Position numbers and translations under genes: made by a program. From positions 1 through 31,956 of the IMG/VR virus record IMGVR_UViG_3300025132_000017: a DNA stretch of 31,956 nt. One strand, given 5' to 3'. This document shows positions 5,486 through 31,956 of this stretch, one piece after another. Position 1 is the stretch's first letter. Every line of letters starts with the position of its first letter. The notes under the pieces were generated by a model. The model searched no databases and was not told the origin of the DNA. It saw only the letters and a list, made by a program, of their open reading frames with translations. The DNA is from a virus.

Positions 5486-8400
5486 TTAACTTTGCAACCC
5501 GAAACCTTTAGCAATATAATCAAAAGTTCTATCGACAGCCGCACCGCTAGAATTTACAAAAGCAATACTGAAACCATTAACAGTTTTTGAACTGATTGTA
5601 AATGTATCTCCCGTAGCCATATTTTGAGCCGCTATACCTAAAGCTGGCACTTCAAAAAATGGATTTGTAAATGCAACTGTTTTAGAACCTGACGATGTTG
5701 CTAAGTTACTTTCAGCAAAAGTTCTTTCTTCAATATTTAATTTAATAGCTATTGTTTTAACATTACTAGAGGTTTGGTCATCATCGTTAGTAAGTTTCAA
5801 TCTAAACTTTGCAAACTTAAATTTAAAAGTAGCAGATTGGGTTATATCTACAAAGTTAGTACAATTAGCTAAAGATGTTGTTGAGGTTGCTATTTGTACT
5901 CTGTGAAAAGCGTGTAATTGTTCAGTCCCATCAAACGGGGCTTTAGCAGAGTCAAAGAATAAAGAACCTCTACCATTATCAAACAAATCATAAGGGTTTT
6001 CTGCATCAAGCGTAATACTAGGCACGACATCGCCATCATATATTTGCGATAAAGATATAGAGTTTGAAAAATTATAAAAACCTTTTGCGTCTCTATTTGT
6101 ATTGTTTTTATTAGGATTTGAGGTTGTATCTGTACCACCTAACTCAAAATCTCCACTTGGGCTGTCAAAATTACCAACTGTTTCATCAAAATTTGTTACT
6201 GTATCTAGCGTTAAAATTGTGTCTCCAGATGGGTCTATTTTTACAGCTAGTGGTAAAGTTCCGTCCATCTGATCTGCCGCTGTAAATACATCAGGTGTTT
6301 CAGTAAAACTAGAAACTGTTTTATAGGCTTGTATGCCAGAAATATTTGTAGTTACGATTGTTTCGGTTGCAGAACTATTGCCGTTTTTATCAACCGCTTT
6401 TATAAGATAGCTACCGACCCTTGCTGGAACTATTGCCGAATCGCATTTTCTTCTTGGACATCTAACTAAATTAGTTGAGTTATTCCATACAGAACCAGTA
6501 AGTACATCTTGAAATCTTATGTCATAAAAAGAAATATCTAAATCACTGTTTTGGCTTGGTGGAGTCCAAGTTAATTTCATGTGGTGTGAGCCGTGCATTT
6601 CAACTGCAAAATCTTCCACATTTGAGGGTACTTCTACACCTCCAACAATCTTACGAGTTGCAGATACAAATGTTGACTTGGCATTAATAGTATTTACGGC
6701 CCTTACTCTTATTTGATAAGTGGCCTCATCTATTACGTTTAAGTGTTGGTAACTTAATATTTTTCCAGTTGCAATTTCTCTAAACGAATCACTTACAGCA
6801 TTTCCGTTGGGGTCTAATGTCTGTTTTATTTGAACTTCATAATTTTCAACAAATTTATCTGGCGATGCACCAACAGATATTAATAATCTTGTTATTACAA
6901 TTCCGTCTGCATATTCAATTAACTCATCATCTAAAGTAACACTAGCTGGTGGTTGGACACTAAATGGGTTTGGCAAAGTCGTATCTGGTATTGTTGCGGG
7001 TGCTACCTGAGTACCAAAAGCATAGTAACTATCTTGATGCTCTGATAACTGCAAAGTAATTGTGTGATCTGTATTTATAGTCATTCCTTGAATACGGAAA
7101 GGTTTTGCCGAGAAACTTGGCGTAGCATGGGTTATATTAACAATATCTCCAATAGCTAAATCTAAGGCAGTACCATCACATTTGAGTGAAACATCTAAAC
7201 TTGATCTTGACCTACGCAGTATAATCTCTGCAAGTTCTTGGGCCTGATGTTGATTTACAATCATAGGGAAATCAAACTTACCCTCTAATAATATGCCCCC
7301 ATCTGCTGTTTTCATGTTGCTATGTGTATCTGCACTTGCAAGTCCTGTTTCGTCCACAGGGGGAAACTGTGCGGTATCTGATTGATAATTTTTCGATGGG
7401 TTAGTGAAATTTACGATCACACGATTATAACGAGAATTTTTGTTTTTACTTGATACATTTATTCCACCTATAATATTATCTTCGGTTAGTGTAACGCTTG
7501 CACTACCAGATGTTTCAACTAATACTTTATACTTACCAGCAGTGAAATTTAAGTATGATCTAGTTCCTTTTACAAAGTCAGCTACAAGATCAATAGATTT
7601 TTTTGATGTATCTACGACTGGGTGGCTATCTAATAAATCAATCTGACTTGCACCACTAAAAGGTGTAATATTAGCATCAACGACATCGCCAGCAGTTTGC
7701 CAGTCTGCAAAGTTACTATCAAAATAACTGTCTGCAATACCCATACCAAATCTTTCGTTTCTTAAATAATCTAGCATTTGATAAATACCATTATCTGAAT
7801 ATTCCCAAGTAGTGCTATCGCCTTTTCTGTGAGAACCAGAACCACCAGTAACAGTGCTGTCTAAGTTAGGATTGTAAACTTTTCTACCTTTAACTATTGC
7901 TGTAACTTGGGGTATAGAACCAAAGGCATCTGAGTTCCATTTAAATTTAAGTGCTATATATGCAAGCCCTCTAAGTCTATGGTTTGATGTCCATGATGAT
8001 AAACCTGATAATAAACTTGATGCACTTTGCGAATCAGTTCCATAGTGAGGTTCAACAGTAATTAAACTTTCAGCACTCGAATCATCATCTGGTGCTTTAA
8101 AATAGTTTGCATCAGAACTAGCAACTGTTCTTTGAGTGTTGTCTGCCAAGTCGCCACTAAAAGTTACCTCGTTATCATTAATAAATATTTTAGTTATATC
8201 GTCTATTTCTCCCTCAGATAACACTATGGCTAAATATAGAAATTCGTTGTCAGTCCCCGAAGTTTCTACAAAAATTACATTCCCCCCTACCTTTCTTGTT
8301 CCGTAAACTATTGGTATGCTTGCATTTGCACTAATTTTATTAACTAAAACACCTCTAGCATTTAAGTCTGGCTGATTACCACCAAAGTCAGGTATTTCAG

Positions 8401-8948: not shown

Positions 8949-9514
8949 TAATCCCTACCCCATTTTATATCTCTTACTGTTAAAGCCGCAAACTCCATAC
9001 CTTTATCTCCACTAAAAAATCTTTGTTGTGAATTGTCTGTTGTTACTCTACCACTTGTTTTTTGAAAATTACCCCAATGTGAAGTTAAATTTAATACTAA
9101 GTTTGCACTGCTTGTATTATCAGTAATTCTATACTCATCAATCGTTCCAAAGAATAATAAAAAAGGGTCAGATATAAGAGCATTACTTGAGTCTAAGAAA
9201 CCTCTGTATATATAAACTTCTTTATTAATTATGTTTTCTGATAAAGCTATTGATATGTATGTTTGATCGACTCCAGAAAGTGTTAGCTGTAAACTATTCT
9301 TAGTAGGTTTATTAGTTTCATTTATTCCACTAATATTTTTTAAGTGACCATTTTTTAAATAAGTTCTTGATGAACCTGATACACTTGATGTGATATCAAA
9401 GGGTGCATTTGTTAAATAGATTGGTGTTCCAAATTCTATTTCAACTAATAATACAGGGTCAATAACCCCTGTTGCTAATTCTGTTTTTACCGAACTCGAT
9501 AATCCTCTTGCCAT
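8948..9514 (-). CDS. Minor tail protein (gpL / DUF2163-like position)
   Basis: This 188-aa protein is beta-rich throughout. It opens ARGLSSSVKTELATGVIDPVLLVEIEFG, continues LTNAPFDITSSVSG and SLQLTLSGVDQTYISIAL, and ends RFFSGDKGMEFAALTVRDIKWGRD. The opening and ending match minor tail proteins I recall from marine siphophages, where they sit between a gpM-like protein and the tail tip protein. It probably forms part of the distal tail hub. A TAATG overlap couples it to the GNAT gene. The assignment rests on order and recalled pattern. Confidence 0.72.
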   Translation of the reverse strand: MARGLSSSVKTELATGVIDPVLLVEIEFGTPIYLTNAPFDITSSVSGSSRTYLKNGHLKNISGINETNKPTKNSLQLTLSGVDQTYISIALSENIINKEVYIYRGFLDSSNALISDPFLLFFGTIDEYRITDNTSSANLVLNLTSHWGNFQKTSGRVTTDNSQQRFFSGDKGMEFAALTVRDIKWGRD

Positions 9515-10122
9515 TATAAACTCTCAATAACATCTATTTCATATTTAAATAATAAATTTCCATCTTTGTCGTTTGAGTTTGTTTGAAACTCTTGAACATC
9601 GTTAGTCATGTGAACTGTAACTGGTATTGATTTATAAGTCACAGCACTATTATCAGCTAAAGCAGTTCTAAGTGGTGGCTCTATTGTAACAGTTGCGGCG
9701 TTACTAGATGAGGTTACATCATCAATAATCATATAAACTTTATCGTGAGCAAACTTTATAAAGTCTCCAGCTTTTAATCTACCAGCACCATCGCCAGCAA
9801 AAGCATCAATAGCAATAGTTGTATCTCCAGCAGTGTGAGAACCATTTACTAATAAAGTTCCTGTTTCATTACCTTGACTGTCTAAGCTAGTTGGTAAAGT
9901 AATAGTAAAATTTTCTTTTCGACTTCTTTGTTTAACCATAAAGGCCATAATTGGTGCAAAATCTGCTCTAGTTAATAAAGGATAAGATACTGTAAAACTA
10001 AATCTTTGGCCTTGTACTTGTCGTCTAAATGTTTTGCCACTATCAGTTTCACTAAATAAAGTTTTCTGATTTGATCTTAAATTAATTGCCTGAAAGTTTG
10101 TGTTTGGTAAAGACCCACTCAT
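9514..10122 (-). CDS. Minor tail protein (distal tail, gpM-like position)
   Basis: This 202-aa protein lies directly after the tape measure gene, overlapping it by ATGA. An N-terminal half of mixed beta sequence (FRRQVQGQRFSFTVSYP, RADFAPIMAFMVKQRSRKENFTITLP) precedes a second domain (GAGRLKAGDFIKFAHDKVYMIIDDVT, TIEPPLRTAL, PVTVHMTNDVQEF). The DFIKFAHDKVY...EPPL...A portion resembles the beta-barrel of distal tail proteins. The position predicts a ring at the tail end binding tape measure and hub. No enzymatic motif is visible. Confidence 0.75.
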   Translation of the reverse strand: MSGSLPNTNFQAINLRSNQKTLFSETDSGKTFRRQVQGQRFSFTVSYPLLTRADFAPIMAFMVKQRSRKENFTITLPTSLDSQGNETGTLLVNGSHTAGDTTIAIDAFAGDGAGRLKAGDFIKFAHDKVYMIIDDVTSSSNAATVTIEPPLRTALADNSAVTYKSIPVTVHMTNDVQEFQTNSNDKDGNLLFKYEIDVIESL

Positions 10123-12026
10123 ATCAATGCCGCCTTACCTTTTTCATTAACAGCACTGTTAATCATGTTTACAATTACACCTCTACTATTAACTAATAAT
10201 TCATTAAATCCTCTTGCATCAACAGTATTAATATTAAAGTTTACTGTTACTGGTTGTCCACCACCAAGTTGATTATTTGGCACTACATTTGATGCTCTAT
10301 CAGGAACTACCATTTCTGGCCCCGCCTCCCCAACCATATACGGCTGTCCTTGATTCATTCTACCACCAAGCCTACGACCTTGATATTTTTGTGATGCTAT
10401 TGTTGCAATCTGGGCCGCACCAAGTCCACCAATAACTGCCGCTAAAGGAATACCAAACGGGCCAAGTGCTAATGCTTTTGTTATACCTCTTGCAGTATTT
10501 ACTATTGCATCTTTAATCGCTAATGCTTTGTTAATTTGAAACATTGTTTTATTGTGTTTTGCAAGTTCTCCAAGTAACTCTCTACCACTAGCATTTGTTA
10601 AATCTTTTATTTGTTCTTTTGTAAGTTTTTCTAATTCTAACTCACTAAAGTTTCTGTCTTTTATTGCTTGTAAGTTTTTATCATACAACGCTTGTTTTAT
10701 TCTTAGTTCTTCTTCGACAGATGCTTTGACCATAGCTAGTCTTTCTTTAATTCCCTCTAATCTAACTTTCATTTCTAACTCGTTTAAATCTTTTAAGTGT
10801 TTTTCAAGGATTTGTGTTTCAAGTTCTCTATCAGAACCTTTCATAATTCTTTCTTCGGTTAAAAATTTTAGTTTGTTTCTCTGATCTTCAATAAGTTCTA
10901 ATTCTCTTGCTTGTTTGTCCTCTAATAATTGTAATTCTGATTTATGAGATTCTTTTATTTTTTCTAAAAGTTTTTTATTTGCCTCAACACTTTTTTCAGT
11001 TTCTTTAACTAAATCAAATATTGGGCTATCTTTTAATTCTATTGCCTCTAATGCCTCGCCAGTTTTTTTTGTGGCATCAGCTAAATCATTCATAGCATCA
11101 ACATTGGCTTTTACCTCTTTATCTACAATTCCTAAAAATTGTAAAAATTGATCGAATTTAGTAACAACAAAAGCAACTGATTTACCTACTGTTTCAAAAG
11201 CGACATTAACAGCCATCAAAGCAAATGATGCAAGTTTACCAAGTAGTTTTATTAATGGTTCTACAAATTGTATTACAGCGGCTAAATTATTTGTAAATCT
11301 AGTAACCTCTGGCGAGACCTCTTGTCCAAAAGCATCTTTAAGATTATCTAATGCAATACCAAAGTTTGAAAATGATACTGATAAGTTATCAAGTTTTTCT
11401 TCGGTAGCACCAGCAAATGTTTCTCCTAAACCTTTTTCTAATGCTTTTAATATCTTAGCCGCACCCTCTGTTGTTTGGCCAAACTTAGATATTTCTAAAC
11501 GAGTTATTCCTAGTTGTTGTTCTAATATTTTAAATACAGGAATACCACGATCAGCTATTTGGTTAAGTTCTTCTAAACCTAGTCCACCTTGAACACCTCT
11601 ACTGAATACTCTTGTCATAGCCTCTAAGACACCAAGTTGATCGGTAGTCACAGCGGCAGTATCAGTAAATACTCTTAAAAGTTTTTCTGTTGGTTCAATA
11701 CCACTAGCTTTTAAAGTGATAAATGATCTTGCCAAATCTTGTACTGTGAATTGAGTTCTTGTTGCAAACTCAGATATAAAATCAAATGCTTTACCACCAG
11801 CCTCAGCAGAACCAGTAACAGATTTTAACGAGTCTCTTAAATCCTCAAACTCTGCTGTTACTCTTAATACTTCTCTAACAACTAATGCACCTCCAATAGC
11901 CGCCAACGCCGCTTTTAATTTACCAGCAGAACTTTTAACTTTATCTAAATTACCTTGAACATTTTTAAGGGCTTGTTTGGATTTATCCTTTGCAATTATA
12001 TCTATGTTTACTTTTTTAGTTGCCAT
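10119..12026 (-). CDS. Tail tape measure protein
   Basis: This 635-aa protein has a Lys/Asn-rich N-terminal helix (KKVNIDIIAKDKSKQALKNVQGNLDKVKSS), a conserved N-terminal tape-measure region (FATRTQFTVQDLARSFITLKASGI; ADRGIPVFKILEQQLG) and a hydrophobic segment near residues 255-285. A long charged coiled coil covers about residues 330-450. A second Gly/Ala hydrophobic stretch (LGPFGIPLAAVIGGLGAA) and the C-terminal MVGEAGPEMVVPDRAS motif, common in tape measure proteins, complete it. It sets tail length; its modest size predicts a short siphovirus tail. It starts in TAATG overlap with the frameshifted chaperone, the canonical arrangement. Confidence 0.93.
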   Translation of the reverse strand: MATKKVNIDIIAKDKSKQALKNVQGNLDKVKSSAGKLKAALAAIGGALVVREVLRVTAEFEDLRDSLKSVTGSAEAGGKAFDFISEFATRTQFTVQDLARSFITLKASGIEPTEKLLRVFTDTAAVTTDQLGVLEAMTRVFSRGVQGGLGLEELNQIADRGIPVFKILEQQLGITRLEISKFGQTTEGAAKILKALEKGLGETFAGATEEKLDNLSVSFSNFGIALDNLKDAFGQEVSPEVTRFTNNLAAVIQFVEPLIKLLGKLASFALMAVNVAFETVGKSVAFVVTKFDQFLQFLGIVDKEVKANVDAMNDLADATKKTGEALEAIELKDSPIFDLVKETEKSVEANKKLLEKIKESHKSELQLLEDKQARELELIEDQRNKLKFLTEERIMKGSDRELETQILEKHLKDLNELEMKVRLEGIKERLAMVKASVEEELRIKQALYDKNLQAIKDRNFSELELEKLTKEQIKDLTNASGRELLGELAKHNKTMFQINKALAIKDAIVNTARGITKALALGPFGIPLAAVIGGLGAAQIATIASQKYQGRRLGGRMNQGQPYMVGEAGPEMVVPDRASNVVPNNQLGGGQPVTVNFNINTVDARGFNELLVNSRGVIVNMINSAVNEKGKAALI

Positions 12027-12543
12027 TATTTAATTCTTACATTTTGTTTTTTTTGTTCGTTTTCTATTTCTTCTCTTTGTTGTTCAAAATATGCAATCCA
12101 CATATTAAACTCAAAGCAACTCATTTGCAATATTTCAGGGATAGTTTTATGTAATCTTTCTGCAAGAGCGATTACGTTATAGACTTCAGGATTTTTTAGT
12201 TTTTTTTTGCGTCCTCGTAGTCAGAACCTAAAATTTGATTAGAAACTCTGGCGATGACATCTGTATCTGCTTTTGTTTTAAAACTAAGTATGTGAGTAGC
12301 ATTAAACATTTTGTTATGGTCTTTATCTAATGCTTTTTCAATTATGACATCAATAAGAATATTAAGGTCTCCACTATTAGCACCCTTAAATAATTTGGAT
12401 TTCTCCGCCATATTAAATGGTTTTGCGTAAATAGCTTTATCGCCTACAAGTCCCCACTCAGGTACTTCTATAACTCTTATTTCTGTTTCTTCAAAGTGAC
12501 TACGAATTCCGTCAAAATAATCAGGTTTATTATCGTCTGGCAT
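12026..12543 (-). CDS. Tail assembly chaperone, -1 frameshift fusion (gpGT-like)
   Basis: The upstream frame ends ...DYEDAKKN-stop at 12196-12198. On the coding strand the end of that frame reads GC, nine A (12208-12200), CTAA. A -1 slip there avoids the stop and opens a frame continuing K-L-K-N-P-E-V-Y to a TAA at 12026-12028, which overlaps the tape measure start (TAATG). The extension contains RLHKTIPEILQMSCFEFNMW then IAYFEQQREEIE, typical of the T part of lambda-like G/GT chaperones. The fusion would be 172 aa, 114 in frame 0 and 58 after the slip. The ratio of G to GT proteins controls tape measure chaperoning. The extension has no good start of its own, which supports frameshifting. 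Confidence 0.85.
12196..12543 (-). CDS. Tail assembly chaperone, unshifted form (gpG-like)
   Basis: This 115-aa acidic protein (MPDDNKPDYFDGIRSHFEETE) lies between the tail tube gene and the tape measure gene, the invariant position of the first chaperone. The core EWGLVGDKAIYAKPFNMAEKSKLF and a VIEKALDKDHNKMFN region are soluble and helical. It ends just after the A-tract used for frameshifting, so most ribosomes should make this short form. Together with the frameshifted form it probably coats the tape measure during tail assembly. Confidence 0.85.
   Translation of the reverse strand: MPDDNKPDYFDGIRSHFEETEIRVIEVPEWGLVGDKAIYAKPFNMAEKSKLFKGANSGDLNILIDVIIEKALDKDHNKMFNATHILSFKTKADTDVIARVSNQILGSDYEDAKKN
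12199..12210 (-). promoter_or_regulatory. Programmed -1 frameshift slippery site (A9)
   Basis: The coding strand reads GC, nine consecutive A, then C. Frame 0 reads GCA AAA AAA AAC TAA, and the slip gives AAA AAA A followed by AA CTA AAA AAT. Both P- and A-site tRNAs (Lys/Lys) can re-pair after a -1 slip. It sits six bases before the frame-0 stop and between G- and GT-type coding segments. Confidence 0.85.
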
Positions 12544-12551
12544 AAATTATA

Positions 12552-12938
12552 TTATACTGTGCCGATAGTTAGACCGCCGTTACCTTGTATAGATACTGTT
12601 CTTGTAGTTACTCCATCAAGAGTTACACCAACTGACATTCCTGTAACAATTCCTGTTCCTGACAATTTTTGTTCGCCTGAACTTGAACCCTCTGGCATAA
12701 ATTCAAAACTCAAACTAGAGCCTTGTAATAATGTACCCTGAGCAGTATCGTCATCGTCAAAATTCATATCAATAGACGCTGTAAATGTACCTCTACCAAC
12801 TACATAAGATTTCATAGAATTACCTAAAGCAGTGTCCTCTACGATATCGTGTGTTGTATCAACAGTAAATCCAGTTGCTTTACCAATGCTTGTTCCACCA
12901 ACATGAACTACTGCATCTTTTCCATGATGAGTTGCCAT
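12552..12938 (-). CDS. Major tail tube protein
   Basis: This 128-aa protein (MATHHGKDAVVHVGGTSIGK) has the beta-rich pattern GFTVDTTHDIVEDTALGNSMKSYVVGRGTFTASIDMNFD, followed by FEFMPEG, LSGTGIVTGMSVGVTLDGVTT and the ending SIQGNGGLTIGTV. This order matches small siphovirus tail tube proteins as I remember them from marine phages. It lies directly upstream of the tail chaperones. It should polymerise into the tail tube around the tape measure. A good SD (AAAGGAG) precedes the ATG, consistent with high expression. Confidence 0.88.
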   Translation of the reverse strand: MATHHGKDAVVHVGGTSIGKATGFTVDTTHDIVEDTALGNSMKSYVVGRGTFTASIDMNFDDDDTAQGTLLQGSSLSFEFMPEGSSSGEQKLSGTGIVTGMSVGVTLDGVTTRTVSIQGNGGLTIGTV

Positions 12939-12944
12939 AATTTA

Positions 12945-13115
12945 TTACTCCTTTTCTTTCTTTAACTCTTTTATAACTTTTTGAGTTTCTTTTTCAACAG
13001 ATATTTTTTTATTTTTCTCTCCAACAGTAAAACCTTTTTTCTCGTAATACTCTCGAAAATCAGGCGAGACTTTTATTGTCATGTCTCCCTTAGTCATTGT
13101 TATGTCCATAGCCAT
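12945..13115 (-). CDS. Small charged protein in the tail module
   Basis: This 56-aa protein begins MAMDITMTKGDMTIKVSPDF and continues REYYEKKGFTVGEKNK, ending in a Lys/Glu-rich helix (KETQKVIKELKKEKE). The start overlaps the preceding tail gene's stop as TAATG (13113-13117), and the tail tube gene follows within 10 bases. The tight coupling on both sides and the SD for the next gene inside its 3' end (AAAGGAG) support it being real. It is probably a small tail assembly or connector factor; no family is recognised. Confidence 0.7.
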   Translation of the reverse strand: MAMDITMTKGDMTIKVSPDFREYYEKKGFTVGEKNKKISVEKETQKVIKELKKEKE

Positions 13116-13558
13116 TATGCAGTCCCCCTTGTAAATTCATACATTACACGCACTGTTATTCTAACTCCACCATAAGGATAAATAGTACCCTCGTCTGATG
13201 ATGCCTCAACAATTTGTGTGTCTAACGCATTTCCATTTCTTGTTATATCATTATCAAGTGTTTCTTCAACTACTTCAATAATTTGATTTCTAACTGTATC
13301 TATATTTGCAGTTGTGCCTTTTCCAAATGCAACTACAAGAAAATCTATTGTTCCCATATATGTACCAGCACCAGTAGCACCCATAGACGCTGGTTCTCTT
13401 GTTTCGTCCCCTGACTGAATAAATGCGGCTGGAAATTGTGCATCAGATAATTCTTCAACCTCAAATGGTTCTCTAGTTAATTTTTTAAACTCAATAGGGC
13501 TAGTAACAGCATCAAGTTTTGTAATTATATCGTTTGCTATATCTTCTCTTTTGCTCAT
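13115..13558 (-). CDS. Tail terminator / tail completion protein
   Basis: This 147-aa protein begins with a helical segment (REDIANDIITKLDAVTSP) followed by mixed alpha/beta sequence (FPAAFIQSGDETREP, GTYMGTIDFLVVAFGKGT, IIEVVEETLDNDITRNG). It ends in a strand (YGGVRITVRVMYEFTRG). This layout and the position between the gpG/gp10-like gene and the tail tube gene match tail terminator proteins of the lambda gpU / DUF3168 type, which cap the tail tube and join it to the head. ATGA overlap couples it upstream. Confidence 0.75.
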   Translation of the reverse strand: MSKREDIANDIITKLDAVTSPIEFKKLTREPFEVEELSDAQFPAAFIQSGDETREPASMGATGAGTYMGTIDFLVVAFGKGTTANIDTVRNQIIEVVEETLDNDITRNGNALDTQIVEASSDEGTIYPYGGVRITVRVMYEFTRGTA

Positions 13559-14025
13559 ATTCCTAATTGTTTAAAATAAAATTGTGTAAATTCATTAATT
13601 ATTTTTGGTTCTTCTTTATTGCCAATAGCAAAAAATGGTCTTTTTACTTTTCTTTTACCTACACCAAAGCTATCGTGAAAACTAGCTATCTTTTCTCTTT
13701 CTTTATTAGCAAACATTAATGTATTTTTAAAACCTCTTTTTCTAAAATCTAACGATCTAAACATCTTACCAGTATCAGTTAAATCTACAAACCCTGTTTG
13801 TCTGCCTCTGTTTTTTCTGTCCTTTTTAGTTGATTGTGCATAAGGCAACATTTTACCACCATCAGGTAATCTACCTTTTTGTGTTCTTTTAGTTATCATT
13901 AAGATTGCCATATTAGAAACTCTGTTAAGAGAAGTTTGTATTGCTTTTCTTTGTTTTCTACTGATTCGTTTTAAAAGTTTTTTTACCTCAATGTCATTGA
14001 CATTAATTTTAATGTCAGCGACCAT
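13555..14025 (-). CDS. Head-tail joining / tail completion protein (HK97 gp10-like)
   Basis: This 156-aa basic protein contains KLLKRISRKQRKAIQTSLNRV, then MAILMITKRTQKGRLPDGGKM and FVDLTDTGKMFRSLDFRKRG, and near the end SFGVGKRKVKRPFFAIGNKEEP. The order 'T-G-x-M-x-x-S' followed by 'RPF' and an aromatic end is typical of phage virion morphogenesis proteins of the HK97 gp10 / gpZ class. These sit at the head-tail junction or guide joining. The TAATG overlap with its upstream gene supports it being part of the connector set. Confidence 0.78.
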   Translation of the reverse strand: MVADIKINVNDIEVKKLLKRISRKQRKAIQTSLNRVSNMAILMITKRTQKGRLPDGGKMLPYAQSTKKDRKNRGRQTGFVDLTDTGKMFRSLDFRKRGFKNTLMFANKEREKIASFHDSFGVGKRKVKRPFFAIGNKEEPKIINEFTQFYFKQLGI

Positions 14026-14501
14026 TACCTAACTAATCGTAATTGGTGTAACGACTCTTTTTCGCTATCAGATACAGTACCCCCGCCGTCCTCATCATAT
14101 TCTACCCCGTCCCGCAAAATTGCTTGGAACTCTTCTTCGTATCTGTCCCTGTAAAAATCTATTTGTACTTGAAATGTATCTTTACCCTCGCCTGTGTCTG
14201 GGTCTCTCCATTTAGTAAGAATTGGATATATATATTTCCATAGTGCTAGATAAACAACAGATTGAGTCCATTGTGAGTTAGTGAGTTTACTGTTGGTCAT
14301 TTCAACAGATGTAACTTTTGTTATGTCTTTGTATCTTACTTGGTGTCTGTATCTTTCCCACCATTCCTCTCGTATTCTACGAAGAACATCATTTTCGGCA
14401 AATTGTAATTGATCTCCAAAGTCTGAAATACCAAACCCTAATATGTCAGGCTGTATCTTTTGCAAATTAGTATTTGCAACTGCAAACTCTGAGGTTGCCA
14501 T
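14025..14501 (-). CDS. Head-tail connector / head completion protein
   Basis: This 158-aa acidic protein contains an aromatic-rich helix (NDVLRRIREEWWERYRHQVRYKDIT). It continues TQSVVYLALWKYIYPILTKWRDPDTGEGKDTFQVQIDFYRDRYEEEFQAILRDGVEYD. The helical bundle pattern and position, second gene after the capsid gene and before the gp10-like gene, fit a gp6/gp15-type head completion adaptor. It should bind the portal and close the head after packaging. This is assigned by order and overall pattern; no catalytic motif is seen. Confidence 0.72.
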   Translation of the reverse strand: MATSEFAVANTNLQKIQPDILGFGISDFGDQLQFAENDVLRRIREEWWERYRHQVRYKDITKVTSVEMTNSKLTNSQWTQSVVYLALWKYIYPILTKWRDPDTGEGKDTFQVQIDFYRDRYEEEFQAILRDGVEYDEDGGGTVSDSEKESLHQLRLVR

Positions 14502-14713
14502 TATTTTTTACTTTTCTTTTTTTTCGTAACTTTCTTAATAACTTTTTTAACCGCTTTAACTGGTGTTTCAGTCTTAGCTTTTACAGCTTTGCCATCATGT
14601 AAACTCCAACCACGCTGTGTCCAAATGCTCACATTGTTTTCGTAATCTACTTTTTTTCTTTCAATGACAGAGCCGTTTTTATTATTAATAAGTTTTACAG
14701 TTTCAATAGTCAT
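14501..14713 (-). CDS. Small Lys-rich protein downstream of the capsid gene
   Basis: This 70-aa protein has a short folded N-terminal part (TIETVKLINNKNGSVIERKKVDYENNVSIWTQRGWSL). The last 30 residues are a Lys-rich tail (KAVKKVIKKVTKKKKSKK) that could bind DNA or the capsid interior. It is separated from the capsid gene by a hairpin and coupled to the connector gene by TAATG. I recall similar 'ER..DY..N...W..RG' proteins after capsid genes in marine phages, without assigned function. A head-associated role is an inference. Confidence 0.65.
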   Translation of the reverse strand: MTIETVKLINNKNGSVIERKKVDYENNVSIWTQRGWSLHDGKAVKAKTETPVKAVKKVIKKVTKKKKSKK

Positions 14714-14730
14714 AATTTTTTATATCAGAT

Positions 14731-14753
14731 AAGGGGTGGGTGTACCACCCCTT
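14731..14753 (-). terminator. Strong hairpin after the major capsid gene
   Basis: AAGGGGTGG and CCACCCCTT form a perfect 9-bp stem with a 5-base loop in an otherwise AT-rich background, just 14 bases past the capsid stop codon. In the transcribed (leftward) direction no U-run follows immediately, so it looks like a weak or partial terminator, or a hairpin stabilising the upstream capsid mRNA. In either case capsid would be made in excess over downstream connector genes. Confidence 0.6.
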
Positions 14754-14767
14754 AATTGTTTTGTTTA

Positions 14768-15607
14768 TTAAGCCGCTAAAGTGTCAGCAGTTATTTTAAC
14801 TCCATAAGAATCATGAAGTTCGCCAACGCCAAACACCGCCGTAGCTACGATCTCATCTGCTCTTAAACTTGCGTCACGCTGAGACTCAATTTTCAAGTCT
14901 TGCATCATCGCTAAGCCTAAAGCGTCTTGTGAGAACACGCCACCGACAGAGTCATCTGAACCATCTACTGCTATGTTTGAACTTTCAAAGATTTGTATTC
15001 CAGCAACATTGCCGACAAATCCAGTTCTCATAGCCTCATTAGATAGGTCTGTGTCTCTACCAACAAAAGTATTAGTCAAAGATTTTTTGACATTAAAAAT
15101 TTGTTTAGGGTGGAACACGCCGTAGTATGGGCCGGGTGCTTTATTAGTTTTTAGTTCAGCCGCACATTCAAATAAATCTTGAACTGTGATTTCAGCACCA
15201 GCACCGGGGCCTTTTTCTGTTGAGAACCCTGAAAACAAAGCCGCTAAATCAGTATCAATTTTAGTAGCAACTGCCTCGCCAAATAATCTGCCGATGTCAG
15301 CCGCAACATTTCTTGATGCTGAGTTTCTTGCTAAGTCTGTTAGTGTTGTCATAATACCAATCTCTGATGCTGTAATAGTAACAGATACTGGATTGACTGC
15401 CGTGTTAGAAAGATCAGTTGCCTCATTTACTGCCGCCGCCGCAACATTTGCATAAATCGGTACTTCTACTGATTTACCACCGCCAGCGATAGTATAGTTT
15501 CTGACAAGACCTCTCATAATGCTTTGCTCTTGTGCTACAAACAAAGCCTCTGCAACGATTTCAGTATATAGTTCTGATATCGTGCTACTTGTCGTTTCAT
15601 TAGCCAT
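14768..15607 (-). CDS. Major capsid protein (HK97 fold)
   Basis: This 279-aa protein directly follows the scaffold gene. N-terminal helix TISELYTEIVAEALFVAQEQSIMRGLVRNY leads into GGKSVEVPIYANVAAAAVNEATDLS and VTITASEIGIMTTLTDLARN. A spine-helix region (LFGEAVATKIDTDLAALFSG) and A-domain features (FHPKQIFNVKKSLTN, NVAGIQIFESSNIAV, KIESQRDASLRADEIVATAVFGVGEL) follow. These match small HK97-fold capsid proteins of siphophages. No protease is encoded and the N-terminus looks mature, so the separate scaffold protein rather than a cleaved delta domain probably guides assembly. A good SD (AAAGGAG) and a downstream hairpin fit high expression. Confidence 0.9.
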   Translation of the reverse strand: MANETTSSTISELYTEIVAEALFVAQEQSIMRGLVRNYTIAGGGKSVEVPIYANVAAAAVNEATDLSNTAVNPVSVTITASEIGIMTTLTDLARNSASRNVAADIGRLFGEAVATKIDTDLAALFSGFSTEKGPGAGAEITVQDLFECAAELKTNKAPGPYYGVFHPKQIFNVKKSLTNTFVGRDTDLSNEAMRTGFVGNVAGIQIFESSNIAVDGSDDSVGGVFSQDALGLAMMQDLKIESQRDASLRADEIVATAVFGVGELHDSYGVKITADTLAA

Positions 15608-15625
15608 TTTTAACTCCTTTAATGG

Positions 15626-16351
15626 TTATTTATTGTTAAGAACAATCTTTGTGGGTTGAGAATCTCTTTGCTTTCTGTACTCAGCATATCTTTTCTTATC
15701 CGCTGGATTGTTCATATTTAAATCACTCAGATTGAAAGGTTTACTGAGTTCTGACCTATCCACATTCGACACTGAGCCACTACCACTAGGGGTAGCAACG
15801 ACAAAGTGCGGGTTCTGTGTTAAAAACTCTTGAACATACTCGTCAGTTGTTAAAAGTTCCCCCTTGTTGTTATATCTAGCTATACCATTTTTATCTAGAA
15901 TTTCAACACTACCCGAATCATTTAATTTTATATTTTTATTAAGTAACTCGACAACTTGATCTGGGTTTACTGCTCTATTCTTTGATGCAGATGACAGTAA
16001 AGATTTATTTACTTTAATATCTCTTAACTCTGTTTCTAAACCACTAAGTTTTTTTCCATACTCATCAGATTTTTCTTTAAGTATTTTTTCAAACTCTCCC
16101 TTTTGAATTTGTTTTTGTTGCTCTGCCTCTTTAGTTGCTTTGACTGCATTAACGGCTGTATCTAAATCCTCAACATCTAATTTTTTATAAATTGATGCTC
16201 TTTCTTTTGCCAATCTTTGTTTGACAATATTATTTACGTCGTCCTCTGTAAATTTAGTCTCAGGTGCTTTTGCAACTTCTTGATTTGTCTGCTCTTCTTT
16301 TGTTTCTTGATTTTCAGTAGTTTGTTCTACTTTTGGTTGTTCTTCGGCCAT
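15626..16351 (-). CDS. Capsid scaffold protein
   Basis: This 241-aa, strongly charged protein has an acidic, low-complexity N-terminus (AEEQPKVEQTTENQETKEEQ) and FTEDDVNNIVKQRLAKERASIYKK, a widespread opening of phage scaffold proteins. A long coiled coil (KEAEQQKQIQKGEFEKILKE; LSGLETELRDIKVN) and the typical C-terminal part with NPDQVVELLNKNIKLND and a basic end (KKRYAEYRKQRD) follow. The C-terminal basic segment usually contacts the capsid protein. It is placed between the minor head and capsid genes, the standard order, and should be absent from mature virions. Confidence 0.87.
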   Translation of the reverse strand: MAEEQPKVEQTTENQETKEEQTNQEVAKAPETKFTEDDVNNIVKQRLAKERASIYKKLDVEDLDTAVNAVKATKEAEQQKQIQKGEFEKILKEKSDEYGKKLSGLETELRDIKVNKSLLSSASKNRAVNPDQVVELLNKNIKLNDSGSVEILDKNGIARYNNKGELLTTDEYVQEFLTQNPHFVVATPSGSGSVSNVDRSELSKPFNLSDLNMNNPADKKRYAEYRKQRDSQPTKIVLNNK

Positions 16352-23471: not shown

Positions 23472-23665
23472 TGCCTAAACTAAACAGACTTTTTAAGAAG
23501 ATACAAAAGTTTGATGTTATTGAAAATAATAGCATCATTCATCTTTTTAAAATTACGCATCTTGATAACTCTACTGCCGTTTATAATAACGATGGTAAAT
23601 TAGTTATGAAGAGTACAATCAACAAACCTAATAATAATAAAGGAGAAAACAATGCAAAAAAATAA
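23471..23665 (+). CDS. Small unknown early protein, translationally coupled
   Basis: This 64-aa protein (MPKLNRLFKKIQKFDVIENN) starts at an ATG overlapping the previous stop (TAATG) with GAGGAGG upstream. A short beta-hairpin-like middle (LFKITHLDNSTAVYNNDGKLV) is followed by an Asn-rich tail (NKPNNNKGENNAKK), which is simply cassette 3 and the next start read in frame. The tail is therefore probably not functional protein. It overlaps the GHKL gene start by 14 nt. Confidence 0.6.
   Translation: MPKLNRLFKKIQKFDVIENNSIIHLFKITHLDNSTAVYNNDGKLVMKSTINKPNNNKGENNAKK
23630..23645 (+). promoter_or_regulatory. AAT-repeat / AAAGGAG leader cassette 3
   Basis: Three AAT units, then AAAGGAG and AAAACA before the ATG at 23652. 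Here the repeat lies inside the coding frame of the upstream 64-aa protein, showing that the cassette is kept for the downstream gene. Confidence 0.75.
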
Positions 23666-25070
23666 TTGGTTTGAGATAGATAAAAAAGGATTGCAACAAG
23701 TCCAAAGTGAGAAAGATAAATTCTTTATCATTAAGGAATTAGTAAGTAATTCTTTTGATGAGGTTATAACTTTATGCAAATTAGATATTGGTAAAACAAC
23801 ATCTTACAAAAGTTATATTGATTGCATGGATAATAGCATAGATGGTTTTAAGGATTTAAAAGATTCTTATACTATGTTTGCACCAAGCTACAAAAAAGGT
23901 ATCGTAGAAAAAAGAGGCAGATTTAATGTTGGAGAAAAATTTGCTTTAGCTATGTTTGATTTTGCAAACATAAAATCTACAACTGGTTCAGTCATCTTTT
24001 CTAAAGATGGTTCAAGAAACAAAACAAAAGCAAAAACTGAACTAGGAACTATTTTTTCTGGAGAGTTAAAATTAACTTATGAAGAAATAGACGACCTTAC
24101 ACAAAAGGCAAAAATGATTATTCCACCAATAGGTGTTGAATATTTAGTAAATGGAAATTTAGTTTCTAGACCAGAAATATATAAATTTTTTACTGAAACT
24201 TTGCCTACTGTTGTTTCTGATGATGAGGGTAATTTAGTAAGATCATCAAGAAATACTAATATTGAGTTGTTCAAAACAGATGAACATTTTATTTATGAAA
24301 TGGGTATTCCTGTTGTTGAGACTGATATTGGCTTTTCAATAAATGTCGATCAGAAAATTCCTCTTAACAAAGATAGAGATAATGTAAGTCCTAGCTATCT
24401 TAAAAAGCTAAAGACTTATGTACTTAATCATACATCATCTGATTTAACTGATGAGCAATCTAAATCTGCTTGGGTAACTGAGGCTCTTGAAGATGCTAAT
24501 GTTGATGCAGTTAAAGATGTTGTTGAATCTAGATATGGAGAGGACGCTGTTGTTTTTGACCCAACTGACCATGAGGCTAACAAAAAAGCATTTGCAGATG
24601 ATGTGAATGTTATTACTGGTGGTAGTTTCAACTCTAAAGTTTGGGACAATATCAAAAGAACTAGAGAAGAGCATCAAGACTTTGCTAGACCATCTGGTTC
24701 TGTTGGCCAATATGCTAGTCCTACTTTGACTGGTGGTGCTAAAGAAATTGATACCTATACTGATGGAATGAAAGAGGTAATAGATTATGCAAAAGAATTG
24801 CATTTATATTTATTTAACTCTTCTTGTTCTGTAAGTATTCACAATGGTAATGGTGCTTTAGCAACTTATGGAAGAGGCAACTTACAGTTCTCTTATAAGA
24901 TGTTAGGTAAGAAATGGTTTGATATTGCCAACAACAAACAGAGAATATTGGAGTTGATAATTCACGAGTTTGGACACTGGTATTCGGGAGATCATTTAAG
25001 TGAAAGATATTATGATGGTCTTTGTGAAATCGGGGCAAAACTTATTATAAGGGAGTCCAATGAAAAATAA
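23652..25070 (+). CDS. GHKL-type ATPase with C-terminal HExxH metallopeptidase-like motif
   Basis: This 472-aa protein has an N-terminus with the three GHKL/Bergerat ATP-binding boxes. The N-box is KELVSNSFDE (E29, N33, D36), a DNG-like box is DCMDNSIDGF (D60, N61, G65), and a G-rich lid is KRGRFNVGEKF (88-97). A middle portion (VVETDIGFSINVDQKIPLNKDRDN) resembles the second, transducer-like half of GHKL proteins. The C-terminus carries IIHEFGHWYSGDH. H438, E439 and H442 form a zinc-peptidase HExxH motif, and H448 sits at the spacing of a metzincin third ligand, although Gly is at position 9 rather than 8. I know no named phage protein with this combination. It is soluble and early, with a strong SD. 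A GHKL switch controlling a peptidase is an inference. Confidence 0.8.
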   Translation: MQKNNWFEIDKKGLQQVQSEKDKFFIIKELVSNSFDEVITLCKLDIGKTTSYKSYIDCMDNSIDGFKDLKDSYTMFAPSYKKGIVEKRGRFNVGEKFALAMFDFANIKSTTGSVIFSKDGSRNKTKAKTELGTIFSGELKLTYEEIDDLTQKAKMIIPPIGVEYLVNGNLVSRPEIYKFFTETLPTVVSDDEGNLVRSSRNTNIELFKTDEHFIYEMGIPVVETDIGFSINVDQKIPLNKDRDNVSPSYLKKLKTYVLNHTSSDLTDEQSKSAWVTEALEDANVDAVKDVVESRYGEDAVVFDPTDHEANKKAFADDVNVITGGSFNSKVWDNIKRTREEHQDFARPSGSVGQYASPTLTGGAKEIDTYTDGMKEVIDYAKELHLYLFNSSCSVSIHNGNGALATYGRGNLQFSYKMLGKKWFDIANNKQRILELIIHEFGHWYSGDHLSERYYDGLCEIGAKLIIRESNEK

Positions 25071-25515
25071 AAAATCAAAATTATTTCCCTACGGCTTTGA
25101 ACGTAGGGAGGTAATCGGTTACTCGATGGATAAGGATAAGACTCCACTCTATCGAATTACAAGAGTTTTACCCAAAAAGAAAACTAACTATAAGTCTATT
25201 TTTAGGGTATCAATAGTTTTGCTTTTACTAATATGTGGTGCTGTGTTCCTTGCTGGGTGTAGCACCACGCCAATAGTAGATAGTAGGGGCAAAAGTTCCG
25301 CCAATATTGAGGGGACGGCGGAACGATATCACGATGACTATTATACTTGCGTTAGTATTGTTGATGACAATACCAATGTCTTTGTTGATACGTCTAAAGT
25401 CGTGTATAATAAACTACGATGGAGAGTTCTTTGGCTATCGCCTAAGCTACAAACTAAAAACGATTTAGTGAATAATTGCTTAGAGGGTCGAGGGTACTCT
25501 GTCTTAAATAAATAA
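25060..25515 (+). CDS. Membrane/lipoprotein-like early protein
   Basis: This 151-aa protein has a charged cytoplasm-like N-terminus of about 47 residues, including KKKTNYK just before the membrane segment. A hydrophobic segment (SIVLLLLICGAVFLAGC) follows, ending in a lipobox LAGC and STTPIVDSRGKSSANIEG. The Cys could be lipidated if signal peptidase II accepts the long N-terminus; an internal ATG at residue 23 would shorten it. The remaining domain has two further Cys (YTCVSIVDD, NNCLEGRGYSV) and probably lies in the periplasm. Starting in overlap with the GHKL gene suggests a joint function, for example at the envelope or in superinfection exclusion, but this is unproven. Confidence 0.7.
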   Translation: MKNKKSKLFPYGFERREVIGYSMDKDKTPLYRITRVLPKKKTNYKSIFRVSIVLLLLICGAVFLAGCSTTPIVDSRGKSSANIEGTAERYHDDYYTCVSIVDDNTNVFVDTSKVVYNKLRWRVLWLSPKLQTKNDLVNNCLEGRGYSVLNK

Positions 25516-31379: not shown

Positions 31380-31956
31380 ACTGGCTTTCTATAATCTCAT
31401 TCATTAATCCATCACTCCCTACAAATAAAAAGTAACCAGCCATATTATTATCAGAAATGACGGCATCTGGCAAAGTGAAGTCTGTAAAGAACTCGGCCCT
31501 GTCATTTAACTGTTGTTGGCTATCAAAAAATGTTTTAGTGTTCCCTAATACTTGCATAACAACAAGAGTTTTTATTTGACTAGATTCATCATACCTTTTT
31601 TTATCATCAATTTTTTTCATAACCTTTTTGGCGGCTTTTTCTTTTGATGACTGTTTTTTCTCTGCTGTCTTGGTTTTTTCGCTTTTCTTTGTCTCTTGTT
31701 GTGGCTCTTCTTTCTTTTCTTCTTTTATTTTTTCAACTACTTTGGTTTTCTCTTCTTTGGATTCCTCGTCTGATTGCGTCTCTTGTTTTTCCTCTTTTGC
31801 CTCTGAGGTTTGTTCGTTGGTTTCTTCCACATCGTTCTCGGATTGGGTACTTTCTGTTTGGTCTGGCTCTTGTGTTGATTCTGTGGTTGTTTCTGTATTC
31901 TCTTCTCCACCCACATTTGTATCAACCTCTATTTCAGTTTCTAAGTTCATTTCTAA
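31366..31956 (-). CDS. Large exported Thr/Glu-rich protein, C-terminal part (continues at left end)
   Basis: This is the other half of the 546-aa protein that begins at 1149. The segment continues the Glu-rich stretch (NVGGEENTETTTESTQEPDQ) into a very long Glu/Lys/Gln-rich region (KVVEKIKEEKKEEPQQETKK). It ends in a folded domain (KKIDDKKRYDESSQIKTLVV, MQVLGNTKTFFDSQQQLNDR, FFTDFTLPDAVISDNNMAGY). I recall 'KTLVVMQVLGNTKTFF' in exported marine phage proteins, without an assigned function. The apparent start at 31950 is only an internal Met; the frame stays open to the window edge and across the junction. Confidence 0.85.
   Translation of the reverse strand, partial: LEMNLETEIEVDTNVGGEENTETTTESTQEPDQTESTQSENDVEETNEQTSEAKEEKQETQSDEESKEEKTKVVEKIKEEKKEEPQQETKKSEKTKTAEKKQSSKEKAAKKVMKKIDDKKRYDESSQIKTLVVMQVLGNTKTFFDSQQQLNDRAEFFTDFTLPDAVISDNNMAGYFLFVGSDGLMNEIIESQYESK
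31858..31956. repeat. Terminal direct repeat (circular assembly overlap), right copy
   Basis: Identical to 1-99; this is the second copy of the assembly overlap and should be trimmed when the genome is closed. Confidence 0.95.

Follow-up and report, generated by a model that had tools for sequence, protein, structure and literature searches.

The window, by which we mean the whole 31,956-nt stretch of viral DNA analysed here, carries a 99-nt exact direct repeat (positions 1–99 and 31858–31956). Its presence at each terminus shows the record, though classed as open, to be a complete circular genome of 31,857 bp from a tailed phage. By eye, the list of open reading frames (ORFs) shows on its − strand what look like genes for terminase, portal, capsid, tail and lysis proteins. 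On the + strand, behind a strong Shine-Dalgarno-like sequence, lies an uninterrupted frame whose product runs from a GHKL ATPase and transducer through a linker to a C-terminal HExxH zinc-peptidase domain (Table 1). The translation places the three ATP-binding boxes and the HExxH segment at the residues given in the earlier note on this DNA. Full-length homologues of the protein were recovered in viral, cellular and plasmid sets. The next gene (25060–25515, +) starts a few bases before the stop of this frame, as in a phage operon. Its product has a transmembrane segment that includes a LAGC resembling a lipobox, and some relatives have the same flanking genes but lack this one between them.

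Table 1. Coordinates of the gene under study, of its motifs and domains, and of a gene run that contains a relative on Picosynechococcus plasmids (window positions unless a locus is named)
Feature	Position	Strand	Basis or remark
CDS, 472 aa: GHKL ATPase, transducer, helical and alpha/beta linker, C-terminal HExxH zinc-peptidase domain	23652..25070	+	without internal stops
Shine-Dalgarno-like AAGGAG before the ATG	23640..23645	+	sequence reading; strong
ATPase and transducer region, about residues 1–245	23652..24386	+	Foldseek, VIA-align
N box ELVSNSFD, residues 29–36 (E29, N33, D36)	23736..23759	+	invariant in 74/74
G1 box DNSIDG, residues 60–65 (D60, G65)	23829..23846	+	invariant in 74/74
G2 box/lid GRFNVG, residues 89–94, then E95 and K96	23916..23933	+	G89, G94, K96 invariant
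Transducer motif QKIPLNKDR, residues 234–242	24351..24377	+	candidate gamma-phosphate contacts; Q234 and R242 invariant, K235 is K/R
Helical region and small conserved segment RYGEDAVVFDPTDHEANKKA...VITGG, about residues 246–340	24387..24671	+	common to small GHKL proteins of cultured phages
Zinc-peptidase domain, Wss1/SPRTN/minigluzincin-like, residues 366–472 (107 residues)	24747..25067	+	model and VIA-align
Zinc site HEFGHWYSGDH, residues 438–448 (H438, E439, H442, H448)	24963..24995	+	conservation; predicted ligands
Diadenylate cyclase – GHKL/protease – CHAT run	L262 (PCC 7002 pAQ6) 9388–15859; L263 7386–12663	one strand	

The window protein alone gave nothing significant against Pfam, PHROGs or NCBIfam; Pfam HATPase_c_3 emerged only via its relatives, being matched by 28 of 33 family members at E ≤ 0.1. 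The AlphaFold2 model of the whole protein, made from a 33-member alignment, had a mean pLDDT of 89.1 and a pTM of 0.71. Its best solved matches in Foldseek were TRAP1/Hsp90 (E = 7e-13), followed by MORC (MORC3), HtpG, MutL and topo VI, and VIA-align ranked GyrB, topo II and TRAP1 equally (Z 15–16) over residues 7 to about 310. A Bergerat fold with a transducer domain is present in these structure comparisons, and on the model the first ~310 residues match GHKL ATPase-plus-transducer clamps of the GyrB/topo II/Hsp90/MORC/MutL type. The transducer motif QKIPLNKDR we take to resemble the QTK loop of GyrB and PLNxSR of Hsp90, a likeness of motif that lies beyond the end of the HtpG profile alignment. 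Equating R242 with the catalytic Arg of Hsp90 was rejected on the same ground, since that alignment stops short of R242. Membership of Hsp90 (HtpG/TRAP1) itself was also rejected, as the profile alignment to HtpG spans residues 21–148 only and the C-terminal part of our protein is a zincin.

The last 107 residues, modelled alone, gave a pLDDT of 96.3 and a pTM of 0.88, with a fold running helix, three strands, HExxH helix, His, helix. The closest structure in VIA-align was S. cerevisiae Wss1 (5xbn; Z 8.6, 2.9 Å, 102 residues), followed by S. pombe Wss1, selecase (Z 8.0), jannalysin and SPRTN (Z 7.0), matches with Z below 8 being ones that may reflect merely a common arrangement. For a modelled domain of 107 residues, the Wss1-like Z of 8–9 is good yet modest. 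The spacing of H438, E439, H442 and H448 (0, 1, 4, 10) is that of the ligands in ScWss1, whose zinc site consists of H115, E116, H119 and H125 (PMC5557861). When the protein was shuffled 200,000 times, HExxH appeared in 1.1% of the shuffles and HExxHx5H in 0.017%. Chance is thus unlikely for the longer motif but the shuffles are not decisive, and we regard the zinc motif as real because it is conserved across the homologues. The tails of the PCC 7002 member HEAAHAMNMHHGEDF, of L094 HELAHALSDKPMEHGPSW and of a divergent member HELGHSEADGGTDHGPTW are written in the SprT-like HExxH...HGxxF/W style. No family member had a Pfam WLM or SprT-like match above cut-off; the divergent ones gave sub-threshold matches (WLM E = 0.022, SprT-like 0.16, YgjP 0.13), and the domain is therefore classed as Wss1/SPRTN-like and not as a member of either. 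With that qualification, the C-terminus is, on its predicted fold, a zinc-peptidase domain of the Wss1/SPRTN/minigluzincin type in which all catalytic residues are conserved.

The description of this end as metzincin-like, offered in the earlier note, was not upheld. The diagnostic Gly of HExxHxxGxxH was found in one of the 61 members having the His at +10. A Met within 34 residues of the third His, as for a Met-turn, was present in 19 of those 61, without a conserved Met column. Furthermore, ~24 residues follow the third His before the chain ends, divergent members differ in the spacing of their His residues, and the fold is that of Wss1, minigluzincins and SPRTN. A weak PDB sequence match of the zinc motif to myroilysin (E 0.003–0.02) reflects the shared HExxH only, since both fold and Gly misfit.

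Conservation was assessed in samples of increasing breadth. A scan of IMG/VR with the protein gave 20 close relatives, and a small profile search extended this to 47 viral loci with identities down to 32%, ranging from small contigs, and marine ones like the window, to a 485-kb phage (LR745208). Across 27 viral representatives below 70% identity, E29, N33, D36, the G1-box Asp, the Gly, Glu and Lys of the G2 box and the four zinc-site residues were invariant. In the widest set, of 74 intact members from viruses, cells and plasmids, E29, N33, D36, D60, G65, G89, G94, K96, Q234 and R242 were invariant, with R90 kept in 73, E95 in 72 and N92 in 71. In the zinc site, H438, E439 and H442 were present in 74/74; H448 aligned in 71/74, and most of the others carry a His at a different nearby spacing. 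The 74 leave out contig-end fragments, L079 (one internal stop), L091 (frame-shifted) and L084 (C-terminus lost). In L091 an HELAH tail can be read in another frame. L084, from the complete genome of Candidatus Desulfobacillus denitrificans, has lost the C-terminal zinc domain and is possibly a decaying copy. The earlier note's pairing, within a single chain, of a GHKL ATPase and a true HExxH zinc-peptidase domain is thus borne out: the two halves are conserved together and modelled with confidence, the HEFGH lies in a Wss1-like zincin fold in the model of the protease domain, and the residues singled out there (E29, N33, D60, H438, E439 and H442) do not vary among the intact members.

Searches with each half separately showed how closely the two are tied. 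A search with the protease domain only found 73 viral loci, and the ATPase was in the same ORF in all 69 that were untruncated. With the ATPase part as query, at least 219 viral loci came up; 80 of them were retained, and nearly all the intact ones carry the protease. Five viral relatives (L217, L219, L232, L247 and L248) keep the ATPase and transducer, stop at about the start of the protease and end in a CPxCG (CPxCGR/K) tail with no HExxH nearby. The protease domain is thus always joined to the clamp, and the clamp can occur without the protease; the ATPase may therefore have a function of its own. The G2 box of the same five relatives is GRFCLG, not GRFNLG.

Outside viruses, 36 contigs were found when each species was scanned through a single genome; they come from Planctomycetota, Pseudomonadota, Verrucomicrobiota, Actinomycetota, Acidobacteriota, Chloroflexota, archaea and others. 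Six plasmids carry the family (from Methylibium petroleiphilum PM1, Rhodovastum, Bosea and three Picosynechococcus strains). Cellular copies are rare, with one in 298 other genomes within one order, and in the tree they are sporadic and interspersed with viral branches, as expected of mobile genes. When the bacterial contigs were checked for prophages with the terminase and portal models of Pfam, whose coverage is poor, most gave no match; a single tested contig had the portal-protein family on it, and one contig, L065, shares a portal homologue with phage loci. Few of the cellular copies are thus demonstrated prophages.

The closest kin of the family were found among small GHKL ATPases of cultured phages (Vequintavirinae, Vibrio phages, Pseudomonas Ab18 phages and others), which align to residues 26–358 (hhalign E = 1.8e-10) and share with it the ATPase, the transducer and a small alpha/beta segment. 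Ten that were sampled are 307–408 aa long and have no HExxH. A relative on L216 is matched by 112 records, and the annotations in this set read 'hypothetical', 'histidine kinase-like ATPase' or 'RIIA lysis inhibitor'. Since these nearest proteins have no protease, the window protein is, as far as profile alignment can tell, a protease-bearing relative of a little-known small phage GHKL core. A different kinship would be with T4 rIIA, a membrane-associated GHKL protein, of which ours might be a variant whose C-terminus is inactive or resembles a zinc finger. In rIIA orthologues, according to a review, a GHKL domain precedes a C-terminal domain that is highly variable (PMC7824862), and many RIIA proteins appear among the structural matches in the viral library, all of them weaker than the closest unnamed ones. 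However, a profile of seven diverse rIIA proteins aligns to residues 22–173, in the ATPase, only (probability 64%), none of the seven contains HExxH, and no rIIB was recognised in the ORF list of the window. The conserved catalytic Glu and three His also argue against an inactive domain, and we consider an rIIA origin very improbable.

Two other readings of the protein's role draw in part on the genes around its relatives. No neighbour recurred across unrelated viral loci, or across bacterial loci outside close relatives; this fits a gene acting alone, and the context names no single pathway. Two plasmid settings are notable. On the Picosynechococcus plasmids a diadenylate cyclase (DisA_N), the GHKL/HExxH protein and a CHAT/TPR protein are encoded consecutively. 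This run is a possible conflict operon and looks like an undescribed immune-type module. On a Rhodovastum plasmid (L260), the family member has HerA and SIR2 anti-phage genes (5767–8798) some 3 kb away, and an integrase gene as well as phage tail genes are close by.

Such neighbours could mean that the protein is a defence or superinfection-exclusion effector, a toxic protease held off by the clamp and freed when the ATPase senses another invader. On this reading the cellular copies would be immune genes, and a cyclic-dinucleotide signal would drive the Picosynechococcus one, with the CHAT protease as its partner. A known precedent for the design is also a defence system: in the bacterial anti-phage Shedu protein VcSduA a GHKL clamp is proposed to govern a C-terminal effector enzyme, which differs from ours in being a PD-(D/E)XK nuclease with DUF4263 (PMC12137116). 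The best match in PADLOC was likewise to a defence protein, TmtA of Tiamat; it was rejected as an identity, since it covers about 100 ATPase residues of profiles of 1300–1650 positions and includes no zinc-peptidase match. Against this reading, the three Picosynechococcus strains are closely related and their layout counts as one event, and PADLOC, like Pfam, PHROGs and NCBIfam, has no model that spans the whole protein. Furthermore, viral genomes carry most of the copies, and these genomes span all sizes, down to small ones in which immune cargo is less usual. We regard the defence reading as doubtful.

Alternatively, the protein could maintain the phage's own DNA, as a viral counterpart of Wss1/SPRTN that removes covalent DNA-protein crosslinks and stalled proteins from the path of replication, with the GHKL part as a DNA clamp and no role in conflict. 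Wss1 and SPRTN depend on DNA-, SUMO- or ubiquitin-binding parts. The family resembles Wss1, SPRTN and the minigluzincins in fold, in the three-His zinc site with Wss1 spacing and in the HGxxF tail of divergent members; unlike Wss1 and SPRTN, it is fused behind a GHKL clamp and has no SIM, VCP or ubiquitin-binding parts. That these are its nearest folds speaks for repair, as Wss1 and SPRTN clear DNA-protein crosslinks (PMC5557861, PMC4559962, PMC5127644). So do some of the neighbours: by eye, ORFs near the copy in the 485-kb phage resemble SbcD, SbcC, a PD-(D/E)XK nuclease and a sliding clamp, and RecA, a topoisomerase and SRAP occur, once each, among the bacterial neighbours. However, these neighbours are inconsistent from locus to locus, most phages manage without the gene, and neither a DNA-binding domain nor the DNA-, SUMO- or ubiquitin-binding parts were found in the family. 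A pure repair role seems unlikely to us, somewhat more so than the defence reading.

We instead favour, at slightly better than even, an ATP-gated zinc peptidase, or clamp-protease, that acts in conflict between the carrier element and its host. The patchy, mobile distribution over viruses, plasmids and sporadic cells would argue for such a role, as would the HerA/SIR2 and diadenylate cyclase/CHAT genes beside some copies. That an ATP-driven clamp controls the peptidase, as the earlier note proposed, may soundly be inferred by analogy. The steps envisaged are as follows. Clamp closure: ATP binding, judging from the class of ATPase, would bring two chains together as a closed clamp, in which Q234/K235 and R242 would lie close to the gamma-phosphate as probable phosphate contacts. 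Gating: closure would trap a substrate, bring the zinc site of the C-terminal domain into working position, or both, the clamp thus controlling the peptidase as the GHKL part is proposed to control the nuclease in VcSduA (PMC12137116). Reset: hydrolysis of ATP would return the clamp to its starting state. Action: less certainly, the enzyme would serve the element that carries it against the host by cleaving proteins that sit on DNA or are crosslinked to it, candidate targets being covalent adducts as well as complexes of the host, of restriction or of defence. DNA-bound substrates are the most plausible because both halves resemble machines that act on DNA (topo II, MORC and MutL on the one side, Wss1 and SPRTN on the other), although that they are the substrates specifically is put forward only tentatively. 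ArdC, the anti-restriction protein of plasmid R388, is likewise a mobile-element protein with a SPRTN-like metalloprotease domain; it differs in having an N-terminal ssDNA-binding domain in place of GHKL, a Glu as third ligand and a protease activity that is dispensable (PMC7213743). By this analogy, such a domain on a mobile element may work without proteolysis.

In outline the GHKL-gated effector is a known design, from the GHKL and nuclease of VcSduA, and its protease version appears undescribed. The individual parts are known; their fusion is outside the models of Pfam, PHROGs, NCBIfam and PADLOC, no paper on GHKL fusions to SprT or WLM domains was found in the open-access literature, and the earlier remark that no named system has this layout agrees with both results. 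The nearest published statement found there is that rIIA proteins join GHKL to variable C-termini and that SprT-like peptidases occur in some jumbo phages as separate proteins (PMC7824862). A viral protein of clamp-protease design is a natural candidate for stripping DNA-bound proteins or disabling host defences. Well-known ATP-dependent proteases run on AAA+ motors. If the reading is true, a GHKL clamp joined to a Wss1/SPRTN-type peptidase would couple ATP to proteolysis in a different way. The family is large, has conserved catalytic residues and is unnamed in the profile libraries used. In its fullest form, the proposal is an undescribed class of ATP-gated GHKL clamp-proteases, mainly of viruses and plasmids, that cut DNA-bound host or defence proteins and in some cyanobacterial plasmids form part of a cyclic-dinucleotide/CHAT immune-like operon; taken whole, this is speculative and we would not expect it to hold. 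The clamp-protease idea is directly testable, since members occur in culturable strains, among them M. petroleiphilum PM1 and the genetically tractable cyanobacterium Picosynechococcus PCC 7002.

On L216, a 147-kb viral contig, a second and different GHKL protein (5628–6971, +) with its own tail HELAHYYGRDGTVDH (HELAH) is encoded about 1 kb downstream of the family member, which suggests that the combination of GHKL with an HExxH tail arose or was retained more than once.
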